From an uncultured beta proteobacterium (lineage in GTDB: Bacteria > Pseudomonadota > Gammaproteobacteria > Burkholderiales > Burkholderiaceae_B), in NCBI GenBank assembly GCA_903894155.1, contig CAITPF010000381.1:1-33841 (forward strand): a DNA stretch of 33,841 nt. The letters are read 5' to 3'. The notes beneath the pieces are model-generated. The model made no database searches and had not been told where the DNA came from. It was given only the letters and a program-made list of their open reading frames with translations. Position 1 is the stretch's first letter. Each line of letters opens with the position of its first letter. Of the stretch, positions 14,400 through 33,841 are shown one piece after another. Both the position numbers and the translations under genes were made by a program.

Positions 14400-14453
14400 G
14401 CCGCAGCAACCGCGCAGGCAAGGGCGCGGCGGCAGCACAGCACAGCGACAGAA

Positions 14454-14597
14454 GGGCATAGCCGCACAACGACATAACCGCATAACGGCAGAACGGCAGA
14501 ACGGCAGAACGGCATAACAGCACGACGGCGTAACCGCACAACGGCGTAACCGCACAACGGCATCACCTCACAATCGCGTGTCCGCACATCGCGAGCA
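14454..14597. repeat. Degenerate 8-bp tandem array, about 18 units
   Basis: About eighteen contiguous 8-bp units fill most of the 217-bp gap between the Bug gene and the dehydrogenase gene. The consensus is CGGCATAA/CCGCACAA. Three adjacent units at 14486-14509 are identical (CGGCAGAA), and divergence increases on both sides. The period of 8 is not a multiple of 3, and the plus strand has stops, so it is not coding. The ribosome site AAGGA of the next gene begins just after the array. Confidence 0.85.
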
Positions 14598-19510: not shown

Positions 19511-20437
19511 GTGGCCGGATTCCTGCTGCGGCGCATTGCGCAGTCGGTGTTCGTGGTGCTGGTGGTGACGCTGCTCGTGTCCTGGGCGGTGCGACTCACC
19601 GGCGACCCGACCCTGATGCTCGTGCAGGGGGCCGGCAGCGTCACCGAGCAGGATCTGGAGAACATTCGCAAGGCGCTCGGGCTTAACCAGCCCTTCGCCA
19701 TGCAGTACCTGGATTTCATGCGGGGGATGGTGTCGGGCAACTTCGGGCGAAGTTTCCTGGGCGGCACACCCGTGTCGCGTCTGGTGGCCGATGCGTTGCC
19801 CGCAACCCTCGCCCTGACGTTTGCCTCGCTTGCCATCTCGCTCGCGGTCTCGATCCCGCTGGGCATCCATGCGGCGGTGCATCGCGGGGGATGGTCGGAT
19901 CAGCTGATCCGTGTGGTGTCCCTGGTGGGCCTTTCCTTCCCGAATTTCTGGCTGGCGATCATGCTGGTCTTGCTGTTCTCGATCATGATTCCGGTGTTTC
20001 CGCCTTCGGGCATGGATGGCCCCGCGAGTCTGGTGCTGCCCGCGGTCACGATGGGCGTGATTTTGTCGGCGGCCAACGTTCGCCTGGTGCGCACGGCGAT
20101 GCTCGAGACGCTCTCGGCCCAGTACATCATGGTGGCGCGCAGCAAGGGTCTGGCCGAGCGCGTCGTGCTGTACAAGCACGCCCTGCGCAATTGCGCGATC
20201 CCGCTGATCACCTACGTTGGCCTGCAGTTCGGCGGGCTGATCGGTGGCATTGTCGTGGTCGAGAAAGTTTTTAACTGGCCGGGCCTGGGCACGCTGGCCT
20301 TCGACGCGATCTCGGGCCGCGACTACCCGGTATTGCAGGCGGCCGTCACGGTGCTGGCGCTGCTGATCGTCACGGTGAATCTGGTGATCGACATTGCCTA
20401 CGGTGTGGTCGATCCGCGGGTGAGGGCGGGATCGTGA
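19511..20437 (+). CDS. ABC transporter permease, DppB/OppB-like
   Basis: The 308-residue inner membrane permease begins MAGFLLRRIAQSVFVVLVVTL, quoted in part (GFLLRRIAQSVFVVLVV), as in DppB-type proteins. It has the N-terminal segment DPTLMLVQGAGSVTEQDLE and the EAA loop VARSKGLAERVVLYKHALRN. It starts with GTG 37 nt after the receptor stop and overlaps the next permease by 4 nt (GTGA). It should form the membrane channel together with the DppC-like partner. Confidence 0.94.
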   Translation: MAGFLLRRIAQSVFVVLVVTLLVSWAVRLTGDPTLMLVQGAGSVTEQDLENIRKALGLNQPFAMQYLDFMRGMVSGNFGRSFLGGTPVSRLVADALPATLALTFASLAISLAVSIPLGIHAAVHRGGWSDQLIRVVSLVGLSFPNFWLAIMLVLLFSIMIPVFPPSGMDGPASLVLPAVTMGVILSAANVRLVRTAMLETLSAQYIMVARSKGLAERVVLYKHALRNCAIPLITYVGLQFGGLIGGIVVVEKVFNWPGLGTLAFDAISGRDYPVLQAAVTVLALLIVTVNLVIDIAYGVVDPRVRAGS

Positions 20438-21585
20438 GCGCGCATTCCGGATCGGGTGGCCAACCCGCCAGCCCGGCTTTCGGCGCAGCACCCGCGATGC
20501 AATCTGCGCAAGCGGCGCAAACTACACAAACGGCACAAACGGCACAAGCGGCACAAGCGGCACAAGCGGCACAAGCGGCACAAGCGGCACAAGCGGCACA
20601 AGCGGCACAAACGGCACAAACGGCACAAACGACACAAACGGCACAAACGACACAAACGACACAAACGACACAAACGACACAAACGACACAAACGACACGC
20701 GGCATCGCGCAGCCGCAGCACCCACCGCCGCAGCCGCCGCAGCCGTCGCCGTCGCCGTCGCGTCGGCGTATTCCGTTTGAGCTGTGGCTGGGCACCTTGT
20801 TGTTCGGCGTACTCGCGCTGGCGGTGGCTTGCTCCGGGTGGCTGTTCCCGGATGGCGGCGAGGCCATGGATCTTGGCGCACGGCTATTGCCGCCGTTTCG
20901 CAGTTGGGCCCATCCGCTGGGCACCGATCCGCTTGGCCGCGACGTGCTGGCGCGCATCGTCGTCGGTGGCAGGATTTCGCTTGCAATCGGCATCTTGTCG
21001 GTGCTGGGCGCTGTGGTGCTGGGCACGCTGATCGGGCTGGTTGCAGGCTACTACCGCGGTTTTGCCGAAATGTTCCTGATGCGCTGCGCGGATGTGCAAC
21101 TCGCGCTGCCGTTTATCCTCATCGCCATTACCTTTATATCGATTCTGGGCGGGGGCCTCGCCAACATCATTTTCTTCATGGTGATTTCGCAATGGGTGCA
21201 GTACGCACGCCTGGTGCGCGGGCAGGTGATGGCGCTGCGCGATCGCGAATTCGTCCAGGCCGCCCATGCGATCGGGGTGAGCGACACGGCGATCATCATG
21301 CGCCATATGTTGCCGCACCTGAGCGGCCCGGTCGTCGTGCTGATGACGCTGAATGTCGCGAACAATATCCTGCTCGAAAGCAGCCTCACTTTTCTCGGGC
21401 TTGGCGTCAATCCGCTTACGCCTAGCTGGGGCGGCATGCTGGCCGACGGGCGTAATTATCTGCAGACGGCGTGGTGGGTCAGCGTGTTTCCAGGCCTGGC
21501 GATCATGTGCTGCGTGCTGGGTCTGAACCTGCTCGGGGACTGGCTGCGCGATCGGCTCGATCCCACTTTTTCCGGAGGGCACTGA
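20434..21585 (+). CDS. ABC transporter permease, DppC/OppC-like, with a Gln-Ala/Thr repeat N-terminal extension
   Basis: The 383-residue protein has a standard DppC-type core from about residue 110: first membrane segment LWLGTLLFGVLALAVACSG, then GTDPLGRDVLARIVVGGRIS, and EAA loop QAAHAIGVSDTAIIMRHMLP. The first 110 residues are unusual. Residues 25-88 are 21 repeats of the tripeptides QAA, QTA and QTT, encoded by a 9-bp tandem array, and a Pro/Gln-rich stretch follows. DppC homologues are about 280-310 residues, so this is an added cytoplasmic tail. The GTG start overlaps the previous stop. A start within the repeats is not possible, because no ATG or GTG follows in frame until the core, so the tail is probably translated. 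Confidence 0.92.
   Translation: MSAHSGSGGQPASPAFGAAPAMQSAQAAQTTQTAQTAQAAQAAQAAQAAQAAQAAQAAQTAQTAQTTQTAQTTQTTQTTQTTQTTQTTRGIAQPQHPPPQPPQPSPSPSRRRIPFELWLGTLLFGVLALAVACSGWLFPDGGEAMDLGARLLPPFRSWAHPLGTDPLGRDVLARIVVGGRISLAIGILSVLGAVVLGTLIGLVAGYYRGFAEMFLMRCADVQLALPFILIAITFISILGGGLANIIFFMVISQWVQYARLVRGQVMALRDREFVQAAHAIGVSDTAIIMRHMLPHLSGPVVVLMTLNVANNILLESSLTFLGLGVNPLTPSWGGMLADGRNYLQTAWWVSVFPGLAIMCCVLGLNLLGDWLRDRLDPTFSGGH
20506..20697 (+). repeat. In-frame 9-bp tandem array encoding a Q(A/T)(A/T) repeat
   Basis: About 21 contiguous 9-bp units lie inside the DppC-like gene. The unit changes gradually along the array from GCACAAGCG to GCACAAACG and then ACACAAACG, giving AQA, AQT and TQT. Neighbouring units are identical in runs, which indicates recent slippage or unequal exchange. 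Because the unit is three codons long, copy-number change keeps the reading frame. Confidence 0.95.
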
Positions 21586-21657
21586 TGCGAATGTTTAGGT
21601 GGTGTCCATGCGGCCGGCCCACTGCCGGTTTGGCGATGCTTGCGCAAATTCACTGAC

Positions 21658-23745
21658 ATGGCAGAGACAATATTCAGCGCGCAGTTCGAGCCCGCGTCGC
21701 TCAGGATCCTGAAGGATCCGCGCATAGCGCTTTGGGCCGGCCTTTCGGTCGAGGTGTGGCTATTCGAAGACCGCGCGGCGCGCGGCCTGCTGGCGTCGCG
21801 CCTTGCAAAAGTGGGTGCGCGTGCGCGCGTATGCAGCGCCTACAAGCCGTTGTTGCACTATTTCCTTGAGCGCGCGGCGTTGTCCGGGATGCGGGACGTG
21901 ATCGTCGAGTACCCGTGCCATCCGCAGGCGGTCGCAACCCGATTCCTGTCGGAAGCCTATCCGCTGGCCGAGCTCGCGGCGCAGGGTACGCCCTGGCGCT
22001 GGGCGGCGTTGGAGGCGAGCACCGAATTGCCTTGTTATCGCGTCACCTGGGTCGATGACCGTGGCGAGCTGCATTTCGATGAGGTGCTTGCCCCGAATGC
22101 CCTGCGTGCCGACCACCTTGGCCGCACATGCCTTGTGCCCAGCGGCTACCTGCGGGTGACCGATCCGCGTTCAGACCGCATTCTTGTCGATGAAATCATC
22201 GAGACCGAGGTCGAGGCGCTTTTCCGGGCGACGATGGTCGCGATCGGCGAGCAAACCTGGGGCAGGCAAGAGCCCTATTTCGAGCGACTCGAGATCAGGG
22301 CCGACGTTCCGGGCACCGAACTTTATCGCGACGACGGGCAACTGATCTCCAGCACGCTTGAAGCCCTTCATGAGGATCTGTATTTTTCGGCGCTTGAGTT
22401 CTTCCAGCACCACAGCGGTCGCCCGCCAGGCGATCGCGGCTTGCAGCCCGGTCAGATCGTGCCCGACGTGCGCCAGGCCAGCCCGGGCAACCCGGCTTCG
22501 GTGTGCGTGGTGCTCCATGCGGCCGGAACGCTTCTGCCTACGCTCGCCACGCTTGCGGAGGCGGACGCGGCAAGCTTGCTTGCGGACGACCTGCTGGTGA
22601 ATGCGAGGACGGCAAGCATGCTTGCGGACGACCTGCTGGTGAATGCGAGGACGGCAAGCATGCCTGCGGATGACCTGCTGGTGAATGCGAAGACGGCAAG
22701 CATGCCTGCGGATGATCTGCTGGTGAATGCGAAGACGGCAAGCATGCCCCTGGATGACCTGCTGGTGAACGCGCGGCTGGCCAGCGCGCTATCCAGCACC
22801 CCGGGAGCGAACACGATGCAAGCGTCGGGCGCGTCGGGCGCGCCGATCGCCCTGGCCGATGTCACGCAGCCTGTTGCCGCATCCCGGGTACGCGAGGAGA
22901 TTCGGGCGATTGCCGGCGACCCTTTCGCGTTTGAGTCGCGGCAGGGACGGATGCTGGCGGGTCTTGTGCGCTCGGGCACGTTACCCCCTGTTGTGGTGAC
23001 GGGCGGTCAGCATGCCAACGAGGCATCGGGTGTCGTGGGCGCGCTGCGCGGCGCGGCGTGGCTGGCAATGCAGCCGGGCGCGCATTTTGCGTGTGTCCCG
23101 CTCGAGAACCCCGATGGCTATGCGCTCTTTGCCGAATACCGGGCGATCCACCCGCAACACATGCACCATGCGGCGCGCTACACGGGCCTGGGCGACGATC
23201 TCGAATATCGCGAACACGAGCCCTGGTACGAGCGGGCAGGGCGCATGCACGCGCTGGCCGTCACCGGGGCGCAACTGCACTTGAGCCTGCACGGTTATCC
23301 GGCGCACGAATGGACGCGACCGTTCACGGGCTACCTGCCGCGCGGGTTCGAACTGTGGAGCGTGCCAAAAGGCTACTTCCTGATCCTGCGCTACAAGCCG
23401 GGCTGGAAGGACATCGCCGAGCAGTTTCTGGGCGAATTAACGGCGGGGCTGTCGACGATGCCAGGGCTAGTCGATTTCAACGCACGGCAGTTGCGCAGTT
23501 ATGAAGCGCACGCGGGCGAGCTTCCCTTTGAGGTGCGGCACGGGATCGCGTGCATGGTGTCGCAGAACGATCGCCAGACGCCGGGCGTGGTGCTGGTGAC
23601 GGAGTTTCCGGACGAAACCATCGCGGGCGAAGCGTTTGTGTTTGCACATGAGGTGCAGACGCACACGGTGCGTACGGCGGCGACCATCTGGTGGGACCTG
23701 ATGCGCCGCGAGCGTGCGGCCCCGCCCCAGCCGCAGACGATCTAG
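21658..23745 (+). CDS. M14 (zinc carboxypeptidase) family protein with an internal 14-residue repeat
   Basis: The 695-residue product has an uncharacterised N-terminal part (about 1-300), a repeat linker and a C-terminal M14 domain. Zinc ligands are His452 and Glu455 in GGQHANEASG and His545 in LHLSLHGYP. The catalytic Glu649 lies in LVTEFPDE. The linker, residues 305-374, is five copies of a 14-residue unit like ASMPADDLLVNAKT. No signal peptide is visible, so a cytoplasmic peptide, amide or glutamyl hydrolase fits best. The ATG at 21658 is preferred to a TTG at 21640, but neither has a good ribosome site, so the start is uncertain. It follows the DppC-like gene by 72 nt, in the place where the importer ATPases would be expected. 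The stop codon is the first unit of a 9-bp array. Confidence 0.87.
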   Translation: MAETIFSAQFEPASLRILKDPRIALWAGLSVEVWLFEDRAARGLLASRLAKVGARARVCSAYKPLLHYFLERAALSGMRDVIVEYPCHPQAVATRFLSEAYPLAELAAQGTPWRWAALEASTELPCYRVTWVDDRGELHFDEVLAPNALRADHLGRTCLVPSGYLRVTDPRSDRILVDEIIETEVEALFRATMVAIGEQTWGRQEPYFERLEIRADVPGTELYRDDGQLISSTLEALHEDLYFSALEFFQHHSGRPPGDRGLQPGQIVPDVRQASPGNPASVCVVLHAAGTLLPTLATLAEADAASLLADDLLVNARTASMLADDLLVNARTASMPADDLLVNAKTASMPADDLLVNAKTASMPLDDLLVNARLASALSSTPGANTMQASGASGAPIALADVTQPVAASRVREEIRAIAGDPFAFESRQGRMLAGLVRSGTLPPVVVTGGQHANEASGVVGALRGAAWLAMQPGAHFACVPLENPDGYALFAEYRAIHPQHMHHAARYTGLGDDLEYREHEPWYERAGRMHALAVTGAQLHLSLHGYPAHEWTRPFTGYLPRGFELWSVPKGYFLILRYKPGWKDIAEQFLGELTAGLSTMPGLVDFNARQLRSYEAHAGELPFEVRHGIACMVSQNDRQTPGVVLVTEFPDETIAGEAFVFAHEVQTHTVRTAATIWWDLMRRERAAPPQPQTI
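22570..22779 (+). repeat. In-frame 42-bp tandem repeat, 5 units
   Basis: Five contiguous 42-bp units start at 22570, 22612, 22654, 22696 and 22738. They encode ASLLADDLLVNART, ASMLADDLLVNART, ASMPADDLLVNAKT twice, and ASMPLDDLLVNARL. The DNA is more than 90 percent identical between central copies, so the expansion is recent. The period is 14 codons and frame-neutral. It lies between the N-terminal and M14 domains. Confidence 0.95.
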
Positions 23746-23934
23746 GCGATCCGGGCGATCCGGGCGATCCAGATGATCCAGGTGATCCAGATGATCCAGA
23801 TGATCCAGATGATCCAGGTGATCCAGATGATCCAGATGATCCAGATGATCCAGATGATCCAGATGATCCAGATGATCCAGATGATCCAGATGATCCAGAC
23901 GATCCAGACGATCCAGACGATCCAGACGATCTAG
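23737..23934. repeat. 9-bp tandem array, 22 units, beginning at a stop codon
   Basis: Exactly 22 contiguous 9-bp units span 23737-23934. The dominant unit is ATGATCCAG, with variants GCGATCCGG at the left and ACGATCCAG at the right. The first unit, ACGATCTAG, carries the TAG stop of the M14-like gene, and the last unit is again ACGATCTAG. The array is not coding for that gene because it follows the stop. Open frames through it are artefacts of the repeat. Confidence 0.95.
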
Positions 23935-24358: not shown

Positions 24359-25291
24359 TTATTTTCGGGGCTGCGCTGCTGGCCTGGCCGCATCGGCACG
24401 GATTTCCTCAAGCGCGGGCATGAGCGCATCGAGCAACTGGCTGATCTCGGCGCACATCAGGGTGATGTCCCCGTCGAATTTTTCGGCGGCATCGGCCGCA
24501 CCCTGCGATTCTGGAGAATCAAGGATATCAAGGGCGGCGACGCGTTTGATGTCGAGGTTTTCAGTCAGCACGAACGACACGCGGTTGTTGAAGGTGAGCG
24601 CAAGGCGCGTGCACTGCTTGCCGCCCTGAACGTGCTTCTTGATGTCGTCGATATCGAGCGTGTGCTTCACATACCGGACCACGGCCGCCTTGTCGCCGCC
24701 GGCGCGCAATTCGGCATCCTGGTCGACGGTGAAGTTGGCAGGAGGCTCGGCGCTGAGGATCCATTCGGTCATGGCCGTGGCCGGGCTGACGTTGACCTGA
24801 ACCGGGAGCATGGGGAAGGGATGGAGCACGCGCCCCAGGGCGGAGATGACCTCTTCGACCTTGGATGCGGACGCGGTATCGACGATGACCCAATGGTTGA
24901 CCGGATCGATCCACAGGCGGGTATCGCGCTGCAGGCTGAACGCACGCGGCAGGAGGGATTCGGTGACCTCTTCCTTGAGATCACGCATTTGCTTGCGACC
25001 GGGCTTGAAACCCTGCTGATCTTCGAGCTCCACCGCGCGGACCTTGACGAACTGGTTGATGACGGAGGCGGGCAGGAGCTTCTTTTCAGTACGAAAGGCG
25101 CACAGGATCTGGCGGCCGACGGCATAGGCGAGGCGCAGGTCGCCCTCGCGCGGCGGGACCCAGCCCGACGACATGGGCGCTGCGGCACCAGCAGAAACAA
25201 AGGCTTCTTTAGCTAGTAGTGCGTCGAGCTGATCGGCGGAGGTCTTCCAGTCACCGGAAAGACGGAATAGTTTGAGATTCTTGAACCACAT
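24359..25291 (-). CDS. rdgC: Recombination-associated protein RdgC
   Basis: The 310-residue protein starts MWFKNLKLFRLSGDW, the characteristic RdgC N-terminus. It also carries the conserved LRLAYAVGRQILCAFRTEKK, quoted in part (GRQILCAFRTEKKLLPASV), and RLALTFNNRVSFVLTENLDIKR, quoted in part (TFNNRVSFVLTENL). Its length is close to E. coli RdgC (303). RdgC forms a ring-shaped dimer that binds double-stranded DNA and limits RecA action. The gene appears complete, on its own or with the small downstream frame. Its presence near several tandem arrays is noted but no link is shown. Confidence 0.95.
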   Translation of the reverse strand: MWFKNLKLFRLSGDWKTSADQLDALLAKEAFVSAGAAAPMSSGWVPPREGDLRLAYAVGRQILCAFRTEKKLLPASVINQFVKVRAVELEDQQGFKPGRKQMRDLKEEVTESLLPRAFSLQRDTRLWIDPVNHWVIVDTASASKVEEVISALGRVLHPFPMLPVQVNVSPATAMTEWILSAEPPANFTVDQDAELRAGGDKAAVVRYVKHTLDIDDIKKHVQGGKQCTRLALTFNNRVSFVLTENLDIKRVAALDILDSPESQGAADAAEKFDGDITLMCAEISQLLDALMPALEEIRADAARPAAQPRK

Positions 25292-25355: not shown

Positions 25356-25976
25356 CTAATGCGATCCTGTCATGCCGTCAAAGCAGGTGCGCTCGACGTA
25401 TCCGACGATTTCGTCGTCGGTAAAGGCCCCGCCGTTCTTGAGAAAGTCGGAAACCGGATCGCAGGAGCGGGCATAAATGGTGTAGAGGATGACTTCCCCG
25501 GGCAGATCCGGGGATAAGTCGCGGGTTTCCTGCGCGAGCAGGATCCATCCACCAAGCAGCTCCGTGAGTTCTGAAACGCGCTCGGCATAGGGGGCGTAGC
25601 CGATCAGCGCGTGCTGGATGGTCGATCGCGTCGAGGGCAACGAGGGCATGGACCCCGCCAGGTGCGTCGTGACCGCCCAGCGCATGACCGCCTTGAGCCG
25701 CTGGATCGGAGATAGGCCTTTGTCCAGGTCATGGGCAACGGCAAGCGTGTCGTCGATCAGGCGGGTCATGGATGCCGCCGCGAGTTCTTCCTTGGACTCG
25801 AAGTGCTTGTAAAGACTTGCTTTCGAGATGCCGACCTCGGACGCGACCTCGTCCATCGTCATGAGATCAAATCCCTTGAGCGATAGCAGCCGGTTGACGG
25901 CATCGAGGATCGCGTCCTCACGAAACCTGAGCTGTTGTTGTTTGAATGACAGCTTTCTTTGTACGGCTGAAGGCAT
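25356..25976 (-). CDS. TetR/AcrR family transcriptional regulator
   Basis: The 206-residue regulator has the N-terminal TetR helix-turn-helix (MDEVASEVGISKASLYKHFESKEEL, quoted in part: EVGISKASLYKHFESKEEL) at about residues 40-62. A ligand-binding C-terminal domain of normal length follows. It is transcribed divergently from the nine-gene operon starting at 26084, with 107 bp between the start codons. That interval holds an inverted repeat overlapping a good -10 box, so it most likely controls this operon and itself. In related operons of other proteobacteria as I recall them, control is by a sigma-E/ChrR pair, so a TetR here would be a different input. The effector is unknown, a fatty-acyl ligand being a reasonable guess. 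Confidence 0.9.
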   Translation of the reverse strand: MPSAVQRKLSFKQQQLRFREDAILDAVNRLLSLKGFDLMTMDEVASEVGISKASLYKHFESKEELAAASMTRLIDDTLAVAHDLDKGLSPIQRLKAVMRWAVTTHLAGSMPSLPSTRSTIQHALIGYAPYAERVSELTELLGGWILLAQETRDLSPDLPGEVILYTIYARSCDPVSDFLKNGGAFTDDEIVGYVERTCFDGMTGSH

Positions 25977-26003: not shown

Positions 26004-26032
26004 TTGACCTTGTCGGCTGATTAATGTCTAAT
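26004..26032 (+). promoter_or_regulatory. Predicted sigma-70 promoter of the lipid-modification operon
   Basis: TTGACC (26004-26009) and TCTAAT (26027-26032) are separated by exactly 17 bp, each differing from consensus by one base. The transcript would start near 26039, leaving a leader of about 45 nt before the ATG at 26084. No rival pair of similar quality was found on the plus strand in the interval. Confidence 0.65.
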
Positions 26033-26035
26033 CAG
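26017..26035. promoter_or_regulatory. Probable TetR operator (inverted repeat)
   Basis: CTGATTA (26017-26023) and TAATCAG (26029-26035) form a perfect 7-bp inverted repeat with a 5-bp spacer that covers the predicted -10 box. An imperfect direct repeat starting TATACC at 26045 and again at 26065 lies between it and the operon start, and may be a second site or overlap the divergent TetR promoter (minus-strand TATACT at 26043-26048). Confidence 0.55.
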
Positions 26036-26083
26036 TGCAGAAAGTATACCGTTTAGTTACTTTTTATACCACTAGGTTAAAAA

Positions 26084-26650
26084 ATGCAGCTTCGAGGTCA
26101 TGTTGAGCAGGTTCCCGGGCCCACCGGCGCGACTGCCATCGGGGTTGGCGCCGGGGAGTTTCGCCGGAATCTGTCCGGGCCGCTGCCCGCTGTCCTGATG
26201 GCCGATTTCGCCCTGGACTGGAAGGTCTGCGGCTCAGGCGTGCTGACCTGGAGCGTGTTTCGCCTTTATCGCGCCACGCTTCATGCGCCCGGTGTTTTTG
26301 ATGCGGATCGCCCCTTTGCGATTGACCTGAGCTACTTGCGGCGCATCCCGGCCGATCAGATTGTTGAGCGAACGATCGACGAAATCAGGCGCCTGCGCAC
26401 GCCGGATCACGAAGCGCTCACGCGCTGGCAGGGCGCTCTCTCTGCGTTGATTCCCGATGTGTCGCTCGGCAGTCGGCTCATCGGGGTGTTCGAGCCTGGC
26501 CGAGGCGTGTCGTTTTACTCCGATGCGCAGCGGCTGGGCGAAGTCTGCGACCCGAAGTTTGCCGAAGCGTTCGCCGCGATCTGGCTTGATCCCCAAGCGC
26601 GCAGCCCGGCGTTGCGCGCGGCGCTTCTCGGCGAGGCACACGCCCAATGA
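26084..26650 (+). CDS. Chalcone isomerase-like protein, first copy, no signal peptide
   Basis: The 188-residue protein belongs to the bacterial chalcone-isomerase-like fold group. Recognisable segments are VFRLYRATLHAPG, RTIDEIRRL, GVFEPGRGVSFY and FAAIWLDPQARSPALRAALLG. Bacterial members rarely have chalcone isomerase activity, and fatty acid binding is known for the fold in plants. The ATG at 26084 follows AGG at 7 nt. A later in-frame ATG at 26198 is possible but has no ribosome site. No signal peptide is visible, unlike the second copy at 29964-30479. It is the first gene of the operon and overlaps the next by 4 nt (ATGA). Confidence 0.82.
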   Translation: MQLRGHVEQVPGPTGATAIGVGAGEFRRNLSGPLPAVLMADFALDWKVCGSGVLTWSVFRLYRATLHAPGVFDADRPFAIDLSYLRRIPADQIVERTIDEIRRLRTPDHEALTRWQGALSALIPDVSLGSRLIGVFEPGRGVSFYSDAQRLGEVCDPKFAEAFAAIWLDPQARSPALRAALLGEAHAQ

Positions 26651-27969
26651 TGCGCGCTTCGCATCCCGCAGCAGCCGCCCCTGCGACGCCCGTACGACCG
26701 GGCGATCGCATCGCCGTCATCGGTGCGGGCATCGCAGGCCTTTCCGCGGCCTGGCTGTTGTCGCCGAACCATCGCGTCACGTTGTTCGAATCGGCAGCCT
26801 ACTTCGGTGGGCATGCCAACACGGTCGATGTCACGATTGGTAGCGTCACGCACCCGGTCGATACAGGATTCCTCGTCTTCAACGAAATCACCTATCCCAA
26901 TCTGGTCCGGCTTTTTGCCACGCTGCAGGTCGAGGTCTACGCAAGCGACATGTCGTTTTCCGTTTCGATCGAACGCCCCGATATCGAGTGGTCCGGAACC
27001 AGCCTTTCCACGGTGTTCGCGCAGACGCGCAATCTCGCGCGCCCTGCGTTCTGGCGCATGATCATCGACATCGTGCGCTTTAACCGCAATGCGCCGCGCT
27101 ACCTCGAAGAGGCACGTGCCAAACCCTGCACGCTTGGTGAATTGCTCGATGCCGAGCGTTATGGCGTTGCGGTGCGTGACTGGTATTTGCTGCCGATGGC
27201 CGCGGCAATCTGGTCTTCCTCGGTTGAAAGCATTCTCGACTTCCCGGCCGAAACCTTCCTGGCGTTCTGCATCAACCATCGCCTGCTGCAGATCGAAAAC
27301 CGGCCGCAGTGGAAGACGGTGCACGGCGGCAGCCGATCCTATGTGGAAGCGATGGTTGCGTCGATCGGTGATGCCCGCAGGTCGTGTCCGGTATTCCAGG
27401 TTCGCCGTACGCAGGATGGTGTGCAGATCACGTCGCGCAGTGGTATCGAGACGTTCGACCACGTGGTGATGGCATGCCATCCGCCGACGACATTACGGAT
27501 TCTGGATGCAACCGCAGCCGAGACCGATGTCTTGCGCCGCTTCAAGTACCAGGCCAATCTGGCGGTCCTGCATGCCGACGCGGCCTTGCTGCCGCGGCGC
27601 GAAAGCGTCTGGGCCGCCTGGAACTACATGTCCGCGACGACCACGGGTCGGCATCGGCCGGTGTCGGTCAGCTATCTGCTCAATGAATTGCAGGCGTTAC
27701 CGTTTCGTACGCCGCTTGTGCTGACGCTCAACCCGCATCGCGCGCCGCATCGCTCGAGCGTGATCGGGCGGTTCAATTACGAACACCCCGTGCTTGATTC
27801 AGAAGCGACGGCCGCCCAGCCGTTGATCCCCACGATCCAGGGGGGCGATCGGGCCTGGTTCTGTGGCGCCTGGGGCGGCTATGGTTTCCATGAAGATGGC
27901 CTGAAATCCTCTCTGCGCATGGCACGTGCCATGGGTGTCACCCCACCGTGGAAAGCGGTCTATGACTGA
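26647..27969 (+). CDS. FAD/NAD(P)-dependent oxidoreductase (amine oxidase / desaturase-like)
   Basis: The 440-residue flavoprotein has an N-terminal dinucleotide motif RIAVIGAGIAGLSAAWLLS and GGHANTVDV, as in amine oxidase and phytoene-desaturase-like enzymes. The C-terminal FAD segment is WFCGAWGGYGFHEDGLKSS. This protein type is regularly found next to DUF1365 and a CFA-synthase-like gene. A role in oxidising or desaturating membrane fatty acyl chains is a reasonable inference rather than a demonstrated activity. It overlaps the preceding gene by 4 nt and the following by 8 nt. Confidence 0.88.
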   Translation: MMRASHPAAAAPATPVRPGDRIAVIGAGIAGLSAAWLLSPNHRVTLFESAAYFGGHANTVDVTIGSVTHPVDTGFLVFNEITYPNLVRLFATLQVEVYASDMSFSVSIERPDIEWSGTSLSTVFAQTRNLARPAFWRMIIDIVRFNRNAPRYLEEARAKPCTLGELLDAERYGVAVRDWYLLPMAAAIWSSSVESILDFPAETFLAFCINHRLLQIENRPQWKTVHGGSRSYVEAMVASIGDARRSCPVFQVRRTQDGVQITSRSGIETFDHVVMACHPPTTLRILDATAAETDVLRRFKYQANLAVLHADAALLPRRESVWAAWNYMSATTTGRHRPVSVSYLLNELQALPFRTPLVLTLNPHRAPHRSSVIGRFNYEHPVLDSEATAAQPLIPTIQGGDRAWFCGAWGGYGFHEDGLKSSLRMARAMGVTPPWKAVYD

Positions 27970-28765
27970 AGCCGCGATCCAGTTGTGCGCCGGTCGCGTC
28001 GCGCACGCGCGTATGCGCCCGTTCGTTCACCGGTTCGTCTATCGGGTGTTCTGCCTGCGGTTGCGCGTGGATCAGCCCAGCGCGCTGATCGCGTTCAATA
28101 GCTGGCTGTTCGGCGTGGATCGCGCGCGCCCTGTCAGCTTCATGTCGAGCGACCATGGCGCACGCGACGGCGGTGACCTGATCGCATGGCTGCGCGGCAC
28201 GGTGCAATCCGCCGGCCTCGGGATGCCGGACGGCGCGGTCTGGCTCCAGTGCTTTCCCCGGCTCTTTGGCTATGTATTCAATCCCGTGAGCTTCTGGTAT
28301 TTGCACGACGCGCAGGGCGCTGTGCGGATACTGGTCGCTGAAGTGAATAATACGTTTGGTCAGCGGCATCAGTATGTGCTGTGCTCGCCCGACGGGGGGC
28401 CGATTCGCGAGGGCGCTGCTCTCGCATGCGCAAAGGCATTCCACGTTTCACCGTTCTGCGCGGTGAGCGGTCAGTATGTGTTTCAGGTTGATGCCCGCGT
28501 GCAGTCGCACCGCGTTTCGCTCGACTATTTCGATCCCGCGGAGGATCCCGAGCCGCTACTGCGCACGGCGATCATCGTGCACCCCGTCACATTGACCACG
28601 CGAGGCCTGCTGCGCGAGCTCGCGCGCGCGCCGCTCATGACGCTGGGTGTGATTGCGCGCATCCACTGGCAGGCGTTGCGACTCTGGCGCAAGGGCGCCA
28701 CTTATCATCCGATTCCCCCGCTGTCCAAGGACGAAGTGTCTTCTAACGCGAAGGTCAACCCATGA
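27962..28765 (+). CDS. DUF1365 family protein
   Basis: The 267-residue protein shows the DUF1365 hallmarks HRFVYRVFCLRLRVD, GYVFNPVSFWYLHD, EVNNTFGQRHQYVL and KAFHVSPF. The biochemical role of the family is not established. It is nearly always encoded between an FAD oxidoreductase and a CFA-synthase-like methylase, as here. The ATG at 27962 overlaps the upstream stop by 8 nt (ATGACTGA), and a longer frame from 27926 is rejected. It ends with an ATGA overlap into the methylase. Confidence 0.9.
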   Translation: MTEAAIQLCAGRVAHARMRPFVHRFVYRVFCLRLRVDQPSALIAFNSWLFGVDRARPVSFMSSDHGARDGGDLIAWLRGTVQSAGLGMPDGAVWLQCFPRLFGYVFNPVSFWYLHDAQGAVRILVAEVNNTFGQRHQYVLCSPDGGPIREGAALACAKAFHVSPFCAVSGQYVFQVDARVQSHRVSLDYFDPAEDPEPLLRTAIIVHPVTLTTRGLLRELARAPLMTLGVIARIHWQALRLWRKGATYHPIPPLSKDEVSSNAKVNP

Positions 28766-29979
28766 GTTTGAACGAGTATCGCCTGTTTGCCTGGTCCAAT
28801 GGCTTGCCCTGGGTCGCGCGAATGTTTCTGACCGCGCTTGATCACATCTCGCATGGGTCGCTCAAGCTGATTGATCCTGCCGGCGTCGCGTTGCACCTCG
28901 GTCGCCGTGCAGAGCAGCCCCATGCGACGCTCACGATCCACGACTGGCGCGCCGCCGGGGTCATCCTGCGACGCGGTGATATCGGGTTCGCCGAATGCCT
29001 GGAGCGCGGCTGGGTGGATACGCCCGACATGCTGGCGCTCTTTACGCTGGCGCTGCGCAACGAGGGCGTGACACGCGTGGTCGACGGGCGCTGGTGGGCG
29101 CTGCTGGCGCGCCGCTTTTCGCATTGGGTGCTGCGCGACAACAGCCGCCGTGGAAGCCGTCGCAACATTCTCAGCCACTACGATCTGGGTAATGCGTTCT
29201 ACAGCCTCTGGCTCGATCCAACGATGTCGTATTCCGCCGCGTTGTTCGAGGGGGATCAGGCCCGCGATCTCGAGGCCGCGCAGCAGGCAAAGTACGACCG
29301 GATCCTGGACGAACTTGGCGCGAGGCCTGGGCAGACCATCCTTGAGGTGGGGTGCGGCTGGGGTGGCTTCGCCGAGCGCGCGGCGCGACGCGGCTTGTCG
29401 GTCGTGGGGATCACGCTGTCGGATGCGCAACTTGCCTGGAGCAAGCGCCGTATCGACGACGCGGGGCTTTCCGACCGGGTCGAGCTGCGTTTGCAGGATT
29501 ACCGCGATGTCACCGGGCAGTTCGATCATATCGTTTCAATCGAAATGTTCGAAGCCGTGGGCTTGCTGCACTGGACCGGATACTTCCGCATGCTCGCTCG
29601 CTGCCTGCGACCCGGCGGGCGGATTGTCGTGCAGTCGATCGATATCCCGGATGCGCACTTCGAGGCGTATCGCAACGGCACGGACTTCATCCAGCAGTAC
29701 ATCTTTCCGGGCGGAATGCTGCCGAGCCCGACGCGGTTCCAGGCCGAATGCCACATGGCGGGATTGCGCTGCGTGACGACAAAATCGATGGGCATCGACT
29801 ACGCGGAAACGATGCAGCGCTGGTCGCAGGCGTTCGAGCGCAATTTGGCCGCGGTTCGCGCGCAGGGGTTTGACGAACGGTTTATCCGCATCTGGCGCAT
29901 GTACCTCGCCTATTGCGAGGCAGGGTTCCGCGAGAGCCGCACGGATGTCAAACAGTGGACGATATGCGCGCGATCATAG
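28762..29979 (+). CDS. Cyclopropane-fatty-acyl-phospholipid synthase family methylase with altered bicarbonate site
   Basis: The 405-residue enzyme has the SAM motif ILEVGCGWGGFAE (about 193-205) and the CFA-synthase landmarks HYDLGNAFYSLWLDPTMSYS, EAAQQAKYDRI, SIEMFEAVG, QYIFPGGMLPS and MYLAYCEAGF. Relative to E. coli Cfa, whose bicarbonate ligands are Cys139, Glu239, His266, Ile268 and Tyr317, my alignment by spacing gives Ala159, Glu264, Gln291, Ile293 and Tyr347. Two ligands are replaced. This points to transfer of a plain methyl group, as in the UfaM or tuberculostearic-acid type methylases, rather than ring formation. The likely substrate is an unsaturated acyl chain in phospholipid. 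It overlaps both neighbours (ATGA upstream, 16 nt downstream). Confidence 0.9.
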   Translation: MSLNEYRLFAWSNGLPWVARMFLTALDHISHGSLKLIDPAGVALHLGRRAEQPHATLTIHDWRAAGVILRRGDIGFAECLERGWVDTPDMLALFTLALRNEGVTRVVDGRWWALLARRFSHWVLRDNSRRGSRRNILSHYDLGNAFYSLWLDPTMSYSAALFEGDQARDLEAAQQAKYDRILDELGARPGQTILEVGCGWGGFAERAARRGLSVVGITLSDAQLAWSKRRIDDAGLSDRVELRLQDYRDVTGQFDHIVSIEMFEAVGLLHWTGYFRMLARCLRPGGRIVVQSIDIPDAHFEAYRNGTDFIQQYIFPGGMLPSPTRFQAECHMAGLRCVTTKSMGIDYAETMQRWSQAFERNLAAVRAQGFDERFIRIWRMYLAYCEAGFRESRTDVKQWTICARS

Positions 29980-30479
29980 CGTCGGCGCTTCTCGCGCTCT
30001 GCGTTTATGCGTCCGCCGGGGCCGCGACGCAGCCCTGGCTTGGGCAGATCCCGCAGGCGCAGCAGGTCGGGGAGGGCGTATTCAAGCGACTGGGCTGGTC
30101 CATCTACACGGCACGGCTGTGGGCGCCTGACGGCGTTTATTCGCCCGGCAAGCCTTTTGCCCTTTCGCTCACATACGAGTTTGACATCGCGCAGTCGCGC
30201 ATCGTGCAGGCATCGATCGACGAAATGGAGCGCCTTGGGGCGCCGGTGGCTGATCGCCCGCATTGGCGCGACGCGCTTCTTGCGGTGATCCGCGATGTCG
30301 GCAAAAGCCAAAGTCTCGCTGGCGTCTACATGCCGGGGCAAGGCGCGCTTTTCTACTACAACGATGTCCAGACTGGCCGCCTGGATGAGGAGCTCGCCCA
30401 GCACTTTTTTGGTATTTGGCTTGATCCGCGCACCAGCGATCCGGCGCTGCGCACCGCACTCCTCGGGGCGCCGCCGTGA
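29964..30479 (+). CDS. Chalcone isomerase-like protein, second copy, exported
   Basis: The 171-residue protein begins with a signal peptide (IIASALLALCVYASAGAATQ), so the mature form should be periplasmic. It shares with the product of 26084-26650 the segments SIDEMERLG, AGVYMPGQGALFYYND, FFGIWLDPRTSDPALRTALLG and the spacing between them, so the two are paralogues. The ATG at 29964 is inside the end of the methylase gene, and the longer frame from 29913 has no signal peptide at its end. A fatty acid or acyl-lipid binding role is inferred from the fold. It overlaps the MFS gene by GTGA. Confidence 0.87.
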   Translation: MRAIIASALLALCVYASAGAATQPWLGQIPQAQQVGEGVFKRLGWSIYTARLWAPDGVYSPGKPFALSLTYEFDIAQSRIVQASIDEMERLGAPVADRPHWRDALLAVIRDVGKSQSLAGVYMPGQGALFYYNDVQTGRLDEELAQHFFGIWLDPRTSDPALRTALLGAPP

Positions 30480-31753
30480 CACGGGGCGGGCTTGCTGCCT
30501 ACGCGGCGCTGGGGTTGCCGCTGGCGATGGCGATGCTGCCGATCTACATGCTCTCGCCGAAGTTTTACGGCGACGCGCTGGGCGTTGATCTGGCAGCGCT
30601 TGGGGCCGTGCTGTTTCTCGTGCGCCTGATGGATACGGCACAGGATCCGCTGATCGGGCGACTCGTGGATTTCCTGCATCGCCGCAAGTCGGGCTGGACG
30701 GCGCTGATCCTGGCGGCTGCGGTCGGGTTGGCGGGCGGATTCCTGATGCTCTTTAACCCTCCTGCCTGGGGCGCGCAGGGGCTGCTTGCGTGGCTCGCCT
30801 TGTCGCTCGTGATCGTCTATACGGCGCACAGCCTGGCGAATGTCTGCTACCTGACCTGGGGAGCTCGCCTGACCGACGACCCGGTCGGCCGGACCCGCGT
30901 AACGGCCTGGCGAGAGGCGTTTGGCTTGGGCGGCGTTGTATTTGCGTCGGTGCTGCCCGCTGCATGGGCGTCGGCGGATGGGGCGCGCGCGGGCTATGCG
31001 CAGTTCGCCTGGGTATTCGTCGGCGTGCTTGCGGTGGGGCTCCTGGTTACGCTGTGGGGCGCTCCGCGGCCCGCGCCCGAAAAGGCCGATGCTCTGGAGC
31101 ACTGGCGCGAGGCGCTGGCACCGGCAGCGATCCGGCGCCTGCTGTGGTTTTACCTGTTCAATGCGACGTCGGTTGCCGTGCCCGCGACGCTGGTGCTCTT
31201 CGTCATGGATGACGCGCTTGGCCTTCAGGCCAGCGCCGGGCTTTTCCTGGGGCTGTATTTTTTCGCGGGATTGGCGGCCTTGCCCGGATGGGTCGCACTA
31301 TCGGACCGGATCGGCAAGGAACGCGCGTGGCTTGTGGGCGCCTTGCTCGCCTCGGGCGCGCTGCTCATGACGGCATCGGTGGGGCAGGGGGACGAGATGC
31401 GCTGGGCGATCGTATGCCTGCTTTCAGGCACGGCGCTTGGCGCTGATCTGGCGCTGCCGCCCGCGATGCTTGCCGATGCCATCGGGCCCGCGCACCGCAG
31501 GAGCACCGGATTGTATTTCGGCTTTTGGGCGCTGGTTGGCAAGCTTTCGCTCGCTCTGGCGGCCGGGCTCGCGCTACCTCTGGTGCGCCTGCTGGGCTAT
31601 CAGCCCGGGGATGCATCGTCGGCTCACGCGCTGACCGAGGTCTATATTCTTTTGCCTGTCGCGCTCAAGGTTGCGGCGGGCGTCGCGTTGTGGCTGCATC
31701 AAGGGCCGCTCAAATTTACGCGCGCCGTGGCGCGCACCAAGGGGTTGTCATGA
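30476..31753 (+). CDS. MFS transporter (GPH/MelB-like)
   Basis: The 425-residue protein has about 12 hydrophobic segments and the GPH-type motif RLMDTAQDPLIGRLVDFLHRR in the first cytoplasmic loop, followed by WREAFGLGGVVFASVLPA. It starts with GTG overlapping the previous stop and ends with an ATGA overlap. MFS members of this sort recur in operons with DUF1365 and DUF3833. The cargo is unknown, and movement of a lipid or lipid precursor is a guess based on context. Confidence 0.88.
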   Translation: MTRGGLAAYAALGLPLAMAMLPIYMLSPKFYGDALGVDLAALGAVLFLVRLMDTAQDPLIGRLVDFLHRRKSGWTALILAAAVGLAGGFLMLFNPPAWGAQGLLAWLALSLVIVYTAHSLANVCYLTWGARLTDDPVGRTRVTAWREAFGLGGVVFASVLPAAWASADGARAGYAQFAWVFVGVLAVGLLVTLWGAPRPAPEKADALEHWREALAPAAIRRLLWFYLFNATSVAVPATLVLFVMDDALGLQASAGLFLGLYFFAGLAALPGWVALSDRIGKERAWLVGALLASGALLMTASVGQGDEMRWAIVCLLSGTALGADLALPPAMLADAIGPAHRRSTGLYFGFWALVGKLSLALAAGLALPLVRLLGYQPGDASSAHALTEVYILLPVALKVAAGVALWLHQGPLKFTRAVARTKGLS

Positions 31754-32298
31754 CGATCAGAACCTGGTTCGCCGCTACGATGGCAGCGCTGCTGACCTCC
31801 TGCGGCAACGTCGATGTCGCGCGTTATGCCGACGAAAAGCCAGCGCTGGATCTTCCAGCGTTCTTCAACGGAACGATCGACGCCTGGGGCCTGTTCCAGA
31901 AGCGCAGCGGCGAAGTGGCGCGACGTTTTCACGTCGTGATCGAGGCCAGCTGGACTGACCCGGATACGGGCACGCTCGACGAGCGGTTCACCTACTCGGA
32001 TGGCGAGCTGCAGCGTCGCGTCTGGACGCTGCGAAGGCAGGCCGACGGCACATGGCTGGGCACGGCTGACGACGTCGTGGGCGTAGCAACAGGAAAGGTT
32101 TCCGGCAACGCGTTGCACTGGACTTACGTGCTCCGACTGCCGGTTGACGGCAAGGAGTACGAGATGGCCTTCGATGACTGGATGTGGCAGTTGGACGATC
32201 GCTCGATGATGAACCGGTCCACGATGTCGAAGTTCGGGATCGAGTTTGGCGAGGTAACGCTATTTTTCCGCAAACGCGTTGCGGGTGAACCGCAATGA
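31750..32298 (+). CDS. DUF3833 family lipoprotein
   Basis: The 182-residue protein has a lipoprotein signal ending MAALLTSCGN, with the lipobox LTSC and Cys18 as the acylated residue. The body has DUF3833 features (FFNGTIDAWGLFQKRSGEV, FTYSDGELQRRVW, YEMAFDDWMWQLDD). The residue after Cys18 is Gly, not Asp, so sorting to the outer membrane is expected. It overlaps its neighbours by ATGA at both ends. A lipid-binding or transfer role is inferred from its fixed company with CFA-synthase-like genes. Confidence 0.9.
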   Translation: MTIRTWFAATMAALLTSCGNVDVARYADEKPALDLPAFFNGTIDAWGLFQKRSGEVARRFHVVIEASWTDPDTGTLDERFTYSDGELQRRVWTLRRQADGTWLGTADDVVGVATGKVSGNALHWTYVLRLPVDGKEYEMAFDDWMWQLDDRSMMNRSTMSKFGIEFGEVTLFFRKRVAGEPQ

Positions 32299-33074
32299 TC
32301 TGTCGGCTCAACCCCCCGATTGCCGATTGGTCAGGGCGCCGCGTCTGGATCGTCGGCGCGTCGAGCGGGATCGGCGCGGCGCTCGCCGATGCGCTGCTCA
32401 ATGCTGGTGCACGGGTTGCGATTTCCGCCCGCCGGCTCGATGCGCTTGAACAGGTCGCAGCCGGCCGTGCGACAGCGTGCGCCGTCGATTTCGACGCGAC
32501 CGATCCAACGGCCTGGCCCCAGGCGTTCGCGCGTGTGCTGGAGGGCCTCGGAGGGCTTGATCTTGTCGTGCTGGGCGCCGCCCGCTACGAGCCGGCACAC
32601 CCCTGGGATTTCGACATGGAAAAAGTCCAGGCGAGCTTTGAGCTGAACGTTGTCAGTGTCTACCGGGCGCTCACGGTCGTGGTGCCGCATCTGCTTGCGC
32701 AGGGAAGCGGCGGGATTGCGCTGGTGGGCAGCATCGCAGCCTATACCGGCCTGCCGCGCTCCATGATCTACGGCGCCACCAAGGCAGCGTTGCGCAATTT
32801 GGCCGAGTCGCTGTATTTCGAGCTGGCGCCCAAAGGCCTGAGCGTCTATCTGATGAGCCCCGGCTTTGTGGCCACGCCGATGACCTCCGTCAACGAGTTT
32901 CCGATGCCGGGGTTGTTAACGCCGTCGCAGGCGGCCGAACGAATGATGCGGGGGCTTGAGCGAGGCCGCTTCGAAATCCGGTTCCCGCGTGGCTTTGCGG
33001 GTGCCGTGCGGTGGGTGAGCCGCCTGCCCGACCGACTGCGCTTCTGGTTGCTGCACAAAGCCACGGGGATGTAA
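32295..33074 (+). CDS. Short-chain dehydrogenase/reductase (SDR)
   Basis: The 259-residue enzyme has the classical cofactor motif IVGASSGIGAAL (Gly21, Gly25, Gly27), NVVSVYRA (the Asn position of the tetrad), and the catalytic Ser146, Tyr159 and Lys163 in GSIAAYTGLPRSMIYGATK. It would reduce a carbonyl or oxidise an alcohol with NAD(P). The operon context suggests a modified fatty acyl intermediate. It overlaps the previous gene by ATGA and the next by one base (TAATG). Confidence 0.93.
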   Translation: MICRLNPPIADWSGRRVWIVGASSGIGAALADALLNAGARVAISARRLDALEQVAAGRATACAVDFDATDPTAWPQAFARVLEGLGGLDLVVLGAARYEPAHPWDFDMEKVQASFELNVVSVYRALTVVVPHLLAQGSGGIALVGSIAAYTGLPRSMIYGATKAALRNLAESLYFELAPKGLSVYLMSPGFVATPMTSVNEFPMPGLLTPSQAAERMMRGLERGRFEIRFPRGFAGAVRWVSRLPDRLRFWLLHKATGM

Positions 33075-33505
33075 TGGATCGCATGAGGCAACGCTACGCA
33101 GAAATTGCAAACTGGTTCGAGCGCCTGCAACCGGCGATGCTCGATTCAATCGGTGATATCTACGCACCGGACGCAGCCTTCACCGATCCCTTCAACGATG
33201 TGCGCGGCGTTGAATCAGTGCGCCTGGTCTACGAGCACATGTTTGCGTCGCTGGTGGCACCCAGGTTCAAGGTGAGCACCATGGTGGTCGAGTCCGATCA
33301 GGCGTTCATGACCTGGTCGTTTGACTTCCGGCTTGGCGCAAAACCCTACAGCATCGTGGGTTGCACCCACTTCCGCCTCGACGCTGCGGGGCGCATTATC
33401 CTGCACCGCGATTACTGGGATGCGGCGCGCGAAGTCTACGAGCACGTTCCCTTGCTGGGAGCCGTCCTGCGCACACTGCGACGCCGCTTGAAGGCATCGG
33501 TCTAG
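33074..33505 (+). CDS. NTF2-like (SnoaL) small protein
   Basis: The 143-residue protein has the NTF2-like pattern: a helical N-terminus (RMRQRYAEIANWFERL), DAAFTDPFNDVRGVESV, and FRLDAAGRIILHRDYWD near the C-terminus. Such cone-shaped folds bind small hydrophobic ligands or act as isomerases or hydratases. The ATG overlaps the SDR stop codon by one base, so an upstream in-frame start at 33011 is unnecessary. It is the last gene of the operon, and the hairpin-forming repeat region begins 34 bp later. Confidence 0.88.
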   Translation: MDRMRQRYAEIANWFERLQPAMLDSIGDIYAPDAAFTDPFNDVRGVESVRLVYEHMFASLVAPRFKVSTMVVESDQAFMTWSFDFRLGAKPYSIVGCTHFRLDAAGRIILHRDYWDAAREVYEHVPLLGAVLRTLRRRLKASV

Positions 33506-33539: not shown

Positions 33540-33742
33540 TTTTGTACTTTGCGGGCCGGGCGCTGCGTGCCCCTGCCGGGCGAATTGCGCCGCCGAGGAT
33601 TGCGCCAGGACCGCCGGGAAACAAGGCGACAGCAGGCTGTCGCCGCCCGGCGGGACCAGCAACCGCAGGGGAGTCCGCGAAGCGGACCGGCGCAGCCTGA
33701 GCCTGGCGGGGGCACGCGGCGCCCGGCCCGCAAAGTACAAAA
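33540..33742. repeat. 42-bp imperfect inverted repeat pair (REP-like) downstream of the operon
   Basis: Arms 33540-33581 and 33701-33742 are inverted copies with 3 mismatches in 42 bp, beginning TTTTGTACTTTGCGGGCC and ending with its complement. The 119 bp between them contain a perfect small hairpin, GTCCGCGAAGCGGAC (33673-33687). The structure is non-coding and could stop transcription leaving the operon at 33505, or be a member of a dispersed intergenic repeat family. No gene is visible in 33506-33841. Confidence 0.85.
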
Positions 33743-33841
33743 CCAACGAGCGTCACCAGCGCGCTGTCGCCGCCCGGCGGGACCAGCAACCGCAGGGGAG
33801 TCCGCGAAGCGGACCGGCGCAGCCTGAGCCTGGCGGGGGCA
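33636..33841. repeat. 127-bp period direct repeat, cut by the window end
   Basis: The 79 bp at 33636-33714 recur without a mismatch at 33763-33841, where the window ends, so the second copy may continue. Each copy contains the GTCCGCGAAGCGGAC hairpin (33673-33687 and 33800-33814). The 48 bp between copies include the right arm of the 42-bp inverted repeat. Confidence 0.9.

Follow-up and report, generated by a model that had tools for sequence, protein, structure and literature searches.

Results

Architecture of the locus

We describe here a divergent tetR gene and a nine-gene operon, probably for methylated furan fatty acids (FuFAs), in the DNA of an uncultured beta proteobacterium of the Burkholderiales (contig CAITPF010000381.1 of assembly GCA_903894155.1). 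The whole stretch analysed, hereafter the window, comprises 33,841 nucleotides; the contig is one of 502 in a 5.15-Mb assembly and stops 336 bp past the operon end. Among the open reading frames (ORFs) of the window, tetR (25356–25976, minus strand) is followed by a 107-bp gap and then by nine genes on the plus strand (26084–33505), whose eight junctions overlap, in order, by 4, 8, 4, 16, 4, 4, 4 and 1 base. The last gene starts with ATG at 33074, forming a TAATG junction, since 33071 holds GTA, which is no start codon. All ten products match the expected Pfam families above the cut-offs. The features are as follows; sites are given without strand.

25356..25976, minus: TetR-family regulator, divergent, 206 amino acids (TetR_N, 56 bits)
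26027..26036: weaker match TCTAATCAGT, a possible third site, 21 bp before site 1, outside the ACY-N4-RGT consensus
26048..26057: predicted TetR operator site 1, ACCGTTTAGT (ACY-N4-RGT)
26068..26077: predicted TetR operator site 2, ACCACTAGGT, exactly 20 bp from site 1
26084..26650, plus: CHI1, chalcone isomerase (CHI) fold, without signal peptide by eye (Chalcone_3, 35.1 bits, cut-off 27)
26647..27969, plus: UfaD-like acyl desaturase dependent on flavin adenine dinucleotide (FAD) (Amino_oxidase/NAD_binding_8)
27962..28765, plus: UfaO-like oxygenase, proposed furan-ring former (DUF1365, 239 bits)
28762..29979, plus: UfaM-like methylase dependent on S-adenosylmethionine (SAM) (CMAS, 290 bits)
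29964..30479, plus: CHI2, signal-peptide-like N-terminus by eye, predicted periplasmic (Chalcone_3, 27.3 bits, barely above the cut-off of 27)
30476..31753, plus: MFS_2 (MelB/GPH-type) transporter, GTG start (MFS_2, 209 bits)
31750..32298, plus: DUF3833 protein, predicted lipoprotein (DUF3833, 228 bits; lipobox LLTSC by eye)
32295..33074, plus: short-chain dehydrogenase/reductase (SDR) (adh_short)
33074..33505, plus: SnoaL/NTF2-like protein (SnoaL_2)

A first-pass annotation, made from the sequence and its ORFs, had described nine overlapping genes with a divergent TetR regulator, and the coordinates, the Pfam families and the junction overlaps of 1–16 bases all confirmed this description.

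Homologues of UfaD, UfaO and UfaM

The consecutive second, third and fourth genes of the operon together encode homologues of UfaD, UfaO and UfaM. In Rhodobacter sphaeroides, UfaM converts cis-vaccenoyl phospholipid to 11Me-12t-18:1, UfaD yields 11Me-10t,12t-18:2, and the DUF1365 protein UfaO produces 9M5-FuFA with oxygen derived from O2 (PMC7380195). The same three steps are carried out by RPA2569–2571 of Rhodopseudomonas palustris (PMC7380195). Since ufaM, ufaD and ufaO are all present and adjacent, the predicted product is a methylated FuFA. The earlier proposal of a Ufa-type acyl-modification operon therefore stood, the three homologues being adjacent as in RPA2571–2569, whereas its remark that the exact product is unknown was too vague, because these three genes predict the product.

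For comparison, we drew 87 loci (L039–L125), one per genus and representing 87 of 115 matching genera, from the matches listed, a set in which weak and divergent members are under-represented. UfaD lies within 9.5 kb of UfaO in all 87 and directly before it in 82. At a conservation of 97% or more in 106 relatives, UfaD has 55 columns and UfaO 19, and the window proteins agree in every one. Compared with six R. sphaeroides-like rows, the window UfaO is 33–37% and the window UfaD 39–43% identical; against a plasmid of Qingshengfaniella (Rhodobacterales), the values are 36% for UfaO and 42% for UfaD. These identities count in favour of a pathway that stops short of the furan or leads elsewhere, to methyl-branched, methylated-diene or cyclopropane chains, because the DUF1365 or the FAD protein acts on another substrate, as does the fact that UfaD and UfaO activity has been demonstrated for two alpha-proteobacteria only in the portions of the literature covered. 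We regard such a pathway as unlikely in view of the complete agreement in the conserved columns, the UfaD–UfaO order across genera, and the formation of a furan fatty acid intermediate in Escherichia coli by a Halomonas ufaM beside ufaD and ufaO (PMC12089945).

A quick tree of UfaD plus UfaO (107 rows, 691 columns, LG+G4) was assessed only by the Shimodaira–Hasegawa-like approximate likelihood ratio test (SH-aLRT). The window lies within its genus (8 rows, SH-aLRT 100), and the genus joins L008, L019 and L046, which have TetR, and L047 and L048, where no TetR was found (13 rows, SH-aLRT 98). The wider branch holding the window has 31 rows (SH-aLRT 94) and, with a group showing the gene order of R. 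sphaeroides RSP1091–1087, forms a branch of 38 rows (SH-aLRT 95).

The bicarbonate site of the E. coli cyclopropane fatty acid (CFA) synthase consists of C139, E239, H266, I268 and Y317 (PMC3132707). At these positions the window UfaM has A, E, Q, I and Y and thus departs from the CFA synthase pattern; the second full CMAS protein of the same genome (C378) has C, E, H, I and Y. In the other loci, 103 methylases are encoded no more than 600 bp after UfaO; all have Q in place of H266, and 101 also differ at C139. The 27 other CMAS genes there are mixed at the H266 position (H in 17, Q in 10). The window UfaM also falls below every NCBIfam cut-off for CFA synthases (255 against 600, 240 against 650, and 239 against 400 bits). 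Judged by these residues and scores, it is a CMAS-family methylase and not a canonical CFA synthase. The idea that the loss of bicarbonate-site residues alone leads to a methyl-alkene instead of a ring was dropped, because cotton cyclopropane synthases, plant enzymes that do form the ring, are reported with Q and S at bicarbonate-site positions (PMC3132707), a point that also speaks for a cyclopropane product of the window operon. The Q-at-H266 signature marks a lineage, not a reaction, and can serve as a simple annotation mark separating UfaM-type methylases from bacterial CFA synthases with C/E/H/I/Y.

For UfaO, the AlphaFold model reached a predicted local distance difference test (pLDDT) score of 89. 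No PDB relative was found by sequence, and none by Foldseek below an E-value of 0.012. The best VIA-align rows were OlmO (Z 7.7) and 2a13 (AT1G79260, nitrobindin; Z 7.5); we do not claim a haem barrel because these Z values are within the tool's typical no-clear-match range.

Conservation within the genus and spread across genera

DUF1365 is encoded in 28 of the 32 genomes of the genus, the window's own genome included. The genus sample comprised the window and 26 further loci, that is, 27 of the 28, G028 (two contigs) being left out. L011, L031 and L038 end before tetR, and of the 24 loci informative for the regulator, 23, the window among them, have a divergent TetR adjoining CHI1. The order TetR, CHI1, UfaD, UfaO, UfaM, CHI2, MFS, DUF3833, SDR, NTF2 is more than chance because it recurs in the genus at 41–88% protein identity; L013 lacks CHI2, and contig ends truncate some loci. 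The nearest relative, L026, is 67–88% identical gene by gene. In one locus of the genus, L006, UfaD is 49% identical and groups with MerR-associated loci in the tree; the operon there was perhaps exchanged. Two metagenome bins titled Bordetella parapertussis (L135, L145) have the locus of this freshwater genus, and their titles are probably misassigned.

In an evenly drawn sample of Pseudomonadota, 187 of 397 genomes encode DUF1365. Scoring the neighbours in the 87 other-genus loci with profiles built from the window proteins placed UfaM near UfaO in 79, SDR in 63, NTF2 in 41, DUF3833 in 36, MFS in 31 and a CHI-like protein in 23. Among the 14 same-order loci, 10 have CHI-like and 7 NTF2-like genes; among the 36 of the same class, the counts are 13 and 29, and among the 37 more distant ones, 0 and 5. 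As both are found in many same-order or same-class loci, they are ordinary operon parts there, which contradicts the first-pass view that they stand "instead" of a sigma factor; both are annotated in Azoarcus pAZKH, beside a MerR gene, and in Cupriavidus p2. The signal-less CHI1 was seen where the genus has TetR beside the operon and in a few relatives with a linked TetR; it alone of the accessory genes is special to such loci. L102, L114 and L118 have the order UfaD-UfaO-MFS-DUF3833-SDR with extracytoplasmic function (ECF) sigma factor/ChrR genes upstream. In L048, UfaM-UfaD-UfaO-UfaM-CHI has a MerR homologue and two ECF-like genes nearby.

Regulators beside the operon

Regulators were surveyed within 9 kb of UfaO in the same 87 loci. 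ECF and/or ChrR genes were found in 45 loci and MerR genes in 17, one of these also with ECF. ECF/ChrR or MerR genes in 61 of the 87 loci are thus the commonest neighbours across genera. TetR homologues occur in two loci, one of which has a weak 46-bit ECF match and is counted among the 45; in 25 loci none of the three kinds of regulator was near UfaO. The single-linkage clustering behind the neighbour classes mixed sense and antisense products, and only the clean clusters (ChrR, ECF, MerR and photolyase) were used; one member of each class, checked in Pfam, gave Sigma70_r2, the ChrR Cupin_7, MerR_1 with B12-binding, and photolyase. A glutathione peroxidase gene (PF00255) immediately precedes UfaD in L040 and L043, which fits a lipid-peroxide theme and is no proof of the signal. 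As far as the window reaches, with the contig ending 336 bp after the operon, it contains no ECF sigma/ChrR gene and no MerR/LitR-type (B12) gene within 9 kb; the first-pass observation that a sigma factor is missing holds to the same extent.

TetR beside MFS and SDR genes is a common efflux layout, and the MFS protein of the window is real by Pfam. The TetR might accordingly sense a xenobiotic, with TetR, MFS, SDR and NTF2 forming an efflux and detoxification unit. This seems hardly credible to us, as the transporter is of the MFS_2 (MelB/GPH) type and 61 loci of other genera have these genes next to ECF/ChrR or MerR; the operon's neighbours in other genera include photolyase, glutathione peroxidase and fatty acid desaturase genes. 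Among the matches listed in our literature searches, no publication dealt with TetR control of a FuFA operon, and the passages found on the rpoE operons of Neisseria and Vibrio have no bearing on TetR control.

TetR and its predicted operator

An unbiased count of dyads in 22 non-redundant tetR–CHI1 gaps of the genus gave AGT-N10-ACT in 17 (shuffles at most 4) and ACT-N4-AGT in 14 (shuffles at most 5); across all 3-base dyads, no count in the shuffled gaps exceeded 12. The two dyads are one array with a 20-bp period. The relaxed form ACY-N4-RGT is present in all 22 gaps, against a mean of 3.0 and a maximum of 9 in shuffles, and 12 of the gaps hold two sites spaced by 20 bp. All 9 other TetR-linked gaps contain it as well, compared with no more than 5 in shuffles, and 7 of them have pairs at a spacing of 18–22 bp. 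In total, all 31 TetR-linked loci tested have at least one site, whereas the sites occur upstream of 6 of 85 non-TetR loci, which is the chance level (shuffles mean 6.4). The pair at 26048 and 26068 is the sole ACY-N4-RGT pair spaced 19–22 bp in the window. In a held-out set of ten plasmid loci out of 91 matching records, a site was found in 4 of 4 loci with TetR (42–47% identical) and in 0 of 6 without TetR, two of the latter (L230, L234) carrying no annotation. An operator of the form TGATTA-N5-TAATCA, as seen in the window, was rejected in favour of ACY-N4-RGT, being not conserved in the genus. In the gap of L026, a tandem repeat array, recognised by eye, lies between tetR and the operator pair, which is kept.

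We also considered 51 tetR homologues that lie apart from FuFA genes, a set including L152 with its lone CHI-like gene. At least one site precedes 30 of them (shuffles mean 5.3, at most 11), and pairs precede 12 (shuffles at most 1). Because the sites stand before linked and unlinked tetR genes alike, we infer that TetR is the binder and regulates its own gene. Many of the sites contain TATACT or TATACC and could be -10 elements, and TetR homologues are also found away from FuFA genes, so that the sites could instead belong to another factor or to a promoter with TATACT-like repeats while TetR controls something else. This explanation is very unlikely, because the sites track TetR and not the operon, both in the loci tested and in those held out, and precede unlinked tetR genes far above the shuffles.

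Two of the control loci, L050 and L052, have site pairs directly before UfaD, and their genomes, together with those of L039, L043, L044 and L049, encode a TetR homologue elsewhere that is 49–53% identical. Further upstream, pairs are present in L039 and L044, two sites 41 bp apart in L043, and none in L049. An unlinked TetR homologue was found in 13 of 21 genomes searched. Operon sites in genomes with an unlinked TetR suggest that TetR may act in trans.

Among the best 80 TetR relatives, 29 are beside FuFA genes, many of them on the same contigs as the surveyed loci, and one is with a lone CHI-like gene. The unlinked tetR genes have no single shared neighbour (the commonest occurs in 24 of 51), and we claim no second regulon; UspA-like, phosphoesterase-like and fasciclin-like proteins, named by eye, recur near them. 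In an alignment of 14 TetR homologues, down to 44% identity, no cysteine but Cys172 is invariant; a redox role for it is a guess.

CHI-like and other accessory proteins

With the predicted structure of CHI1 (pLDDT 89), Foldseek returned 53 PDB chains at E-values of 0.001 or below, and the 50 listed are CHI, CHI-like, fatty-acid-binding protein (FAP) or yeast Aim18 structures. The best row had an E-value of 1.7e-6, and the plant fatty-acid-binding proteins AtFAP1 and AtFAP3 had 5.9e-6 and 4.2e-5. According to this model, CHI1 has the CHI fold, and we propose it as a cytoplasmic acyl-chain-binding protein; acyl-chain binding might extend to the bacterial CHI-like proteins considered here. The lipid carrier MFSD2A is a member of MFS_2, the MelB-type family. 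The recurrence of MFS, DUF3833, SDR, CHI-like and NTF2-like genes points to a side of the pathway yet to be explored, the handling of modified lipids. A coupling to lipid delivery, as put forward in the first-pass annotation, is a hypothesis. When RSP1087, RSP1088 and RSP1089 were deleted one at a time, the fatty acid profile of R. sphaeroides stayed the same (PMC7380195). By place and size, these genes would encode the SDR, DUF3833 and MFS proteins, and the unchanged profile indicates that R. sphaeroides can make FuFAs without them.

Surroundings of the operon

Downstream of tetR and on the same strand lies rdgC (24359–25291). Judged by eye from the translations, the region at 1–24300 contains ORFs that resemble genes for ABC transport and for catabolism of the hydantoin/pyrimidine type. 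Minisatellites whose units measure about 8–51 bp occur at 4627–4775, 5543–5705, 14440–14588, 20509–20698, 22568–22773 and 23734–23931; the one at 20509–20698 encodes the AQ/TQ-rich N-terminus of ORF 20434–21585, and that at 22568–22773 a repeat block in ORF 21640–23745. An 85-bp direct repeat (98% identical, 127 bp apart) at 33630–33841 reaches the contig end and is perhaps the reason why the contig stops.

Discussion

Proposed mechanism

We estimate a probability of roughly 0.7 that this is a methylated FuFA operon repressed by the divergent TetR at two operator sites. The operon very probably turns ordinary membrane fatty acids into oxygen-scavenging FuFAs. The substrate would be acyl chains already in membrane phospholipid. 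UfaM would add a methyl group from SAM to cis-vaccenoyl chains, UfaD would desaturate the methylated product with FAD and O2, and UfaO would insert an O2-derived oxygen, closing the furan ring; the resulting FuFAs would scavenge reactive oxygen. CHI1 in the cytoplasm, CHI2 in the periplasm, the DUF3833 lipoprotein and the MFS_2 carrier may bind or move the modified lipids, and the SDR and NTF2-like proteins may be accessory. TetR would repress its own gene and the operon from the 107-bp gap through the two ACY-N4-RGT sites, whose 20-bp distance corresponds to two helical turns, until released by a signal that is probably oxidative or lipid-derived.

Several points weigh against this reading. 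The furan product of the source organism is deduced here from its genes; the proteins compared in place of those of R. sphaeroides and R. palustris came from R. sphaeroides-like rows recognised by gene order, with Qingshengfaniella in addition. Given the Q and S of the plant enzymes, the Q signature alone does not exclude cyclopropane formation. As for the regulation, the relaxation to ACY-N4-RGT was made after inspecting TetR-linked loci, and the TetR-linked L157, which has no usable gap, was left out of the site test. The four held-out TetR loci are all Cupriavidus, and three share one site. Of the best 80 TetR relatives, 50 have no FuFA genes in the adjacent DNA, some flanks being short, so the TetR family is broader than FuFA control. 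L006 of the same genus has a MerR-type regulator, no TetR and no CHI1. No sigma-70-like promoter consensus was found. A second regulator downstream, beyond the contig end, would be invisible here, and none is present within the flanks of the 22 other same-genus TetR loci.

The operon is of a known kind, placed under a lineage-specific TetR switch, and the new part is its regulation. R. sphaeroides couples FuFA synthesis to singlet oxygen via sigmaE/ChrR, and here the operon would be placed under TetR. A TetR with a readable operator could be cloned as a switch and screened for its ligand, which might offer a direct route to the signal by which a freshwater bacterium builds furan lipids. More speculatively, and with considerable doubt, we might imagine the TetR, with its invariant Cys172, as a sensor devoted to membrane lipid in oxidised or electrophilic form, or to FuFA itself, which took over the FuFA operon in several Burkholderiales lineages, adjacent to it or in trans via paired ACY-N4-RGT sites. 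Three unrelated sensors would then serve one operon: ECF/ChrR for singlet oxygen, B12-MerR probably for light, and TetR for lipid damage. The two CHI proteins would carry the acyl chains of the pathway on each side of the membrane, as the bacterial equivalent of the fatty-acid-binding CHI proteins of plants.

Comparison with known systems

In R. sphaeroides, ufaD and ufaO are likewise adjacent and ufaM is present, and three further genes of RSP1091–1087 would be those for MFS, DUF3833 and SDR, judging from the layout of L102, L114 and L118; however, ufaM (RSP2144) lies elsewhere and control is by sigmaE/ChrR (PMC7380195). The window differs in its single nine-gene operon, its CHI and NTF2 genes and its TetR. 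RPA2571–2569 of R. palustris have ufaD-ufaO-ufaM in the order of the window, whereas the portion of the report available describes no CHI genes or TetR there (PMC7380195). The Qingshengfaniella plasmid has the layout sigma-ChrR-FAD-DUF1365-MFS. Closer to the window, pAZKH of Azoarcus sp. KH32C (AZKH_RS26020–RS25985) has the identical eight-gene order from FAD to NTF2, but with MerR in place of TetR and without CHI1. Plasmid p2 of Cupriavidus pinatubonensis HN-2 (K2O51_RS32515–RS32475) has a divergent TetR homologue, the same eight genes and an upstream ACTATGCAGT site; its TetR is 45% identical, CHI1 is missing, and there is one site instead of a pair. The nine genes smlt2375–2367 of Stenotrophomonas maltophilia, in the RpoEc/ChrR regulon, also form a regulated lipid operon, in which an FAD oxidoreductase, a cytosolic hypothetical protein and a CFA-like synthase are consecutive; it differs in its sigma-factor control and in an acyl-CoA desaturase, a lipocalin and a second CFA-like gene (PMC11832516). 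Finally, in Arabidopsis, AtUFAMD1 (AT3G23510), a single protein similar to UfaD plus UfaM, and the DUF1365 protein AtUFAO1 (AT1G30130) are proposed FuFA enzymes, which, unlike the proteins of the window, are plant lipid-droplet proteins (PMC10940516).

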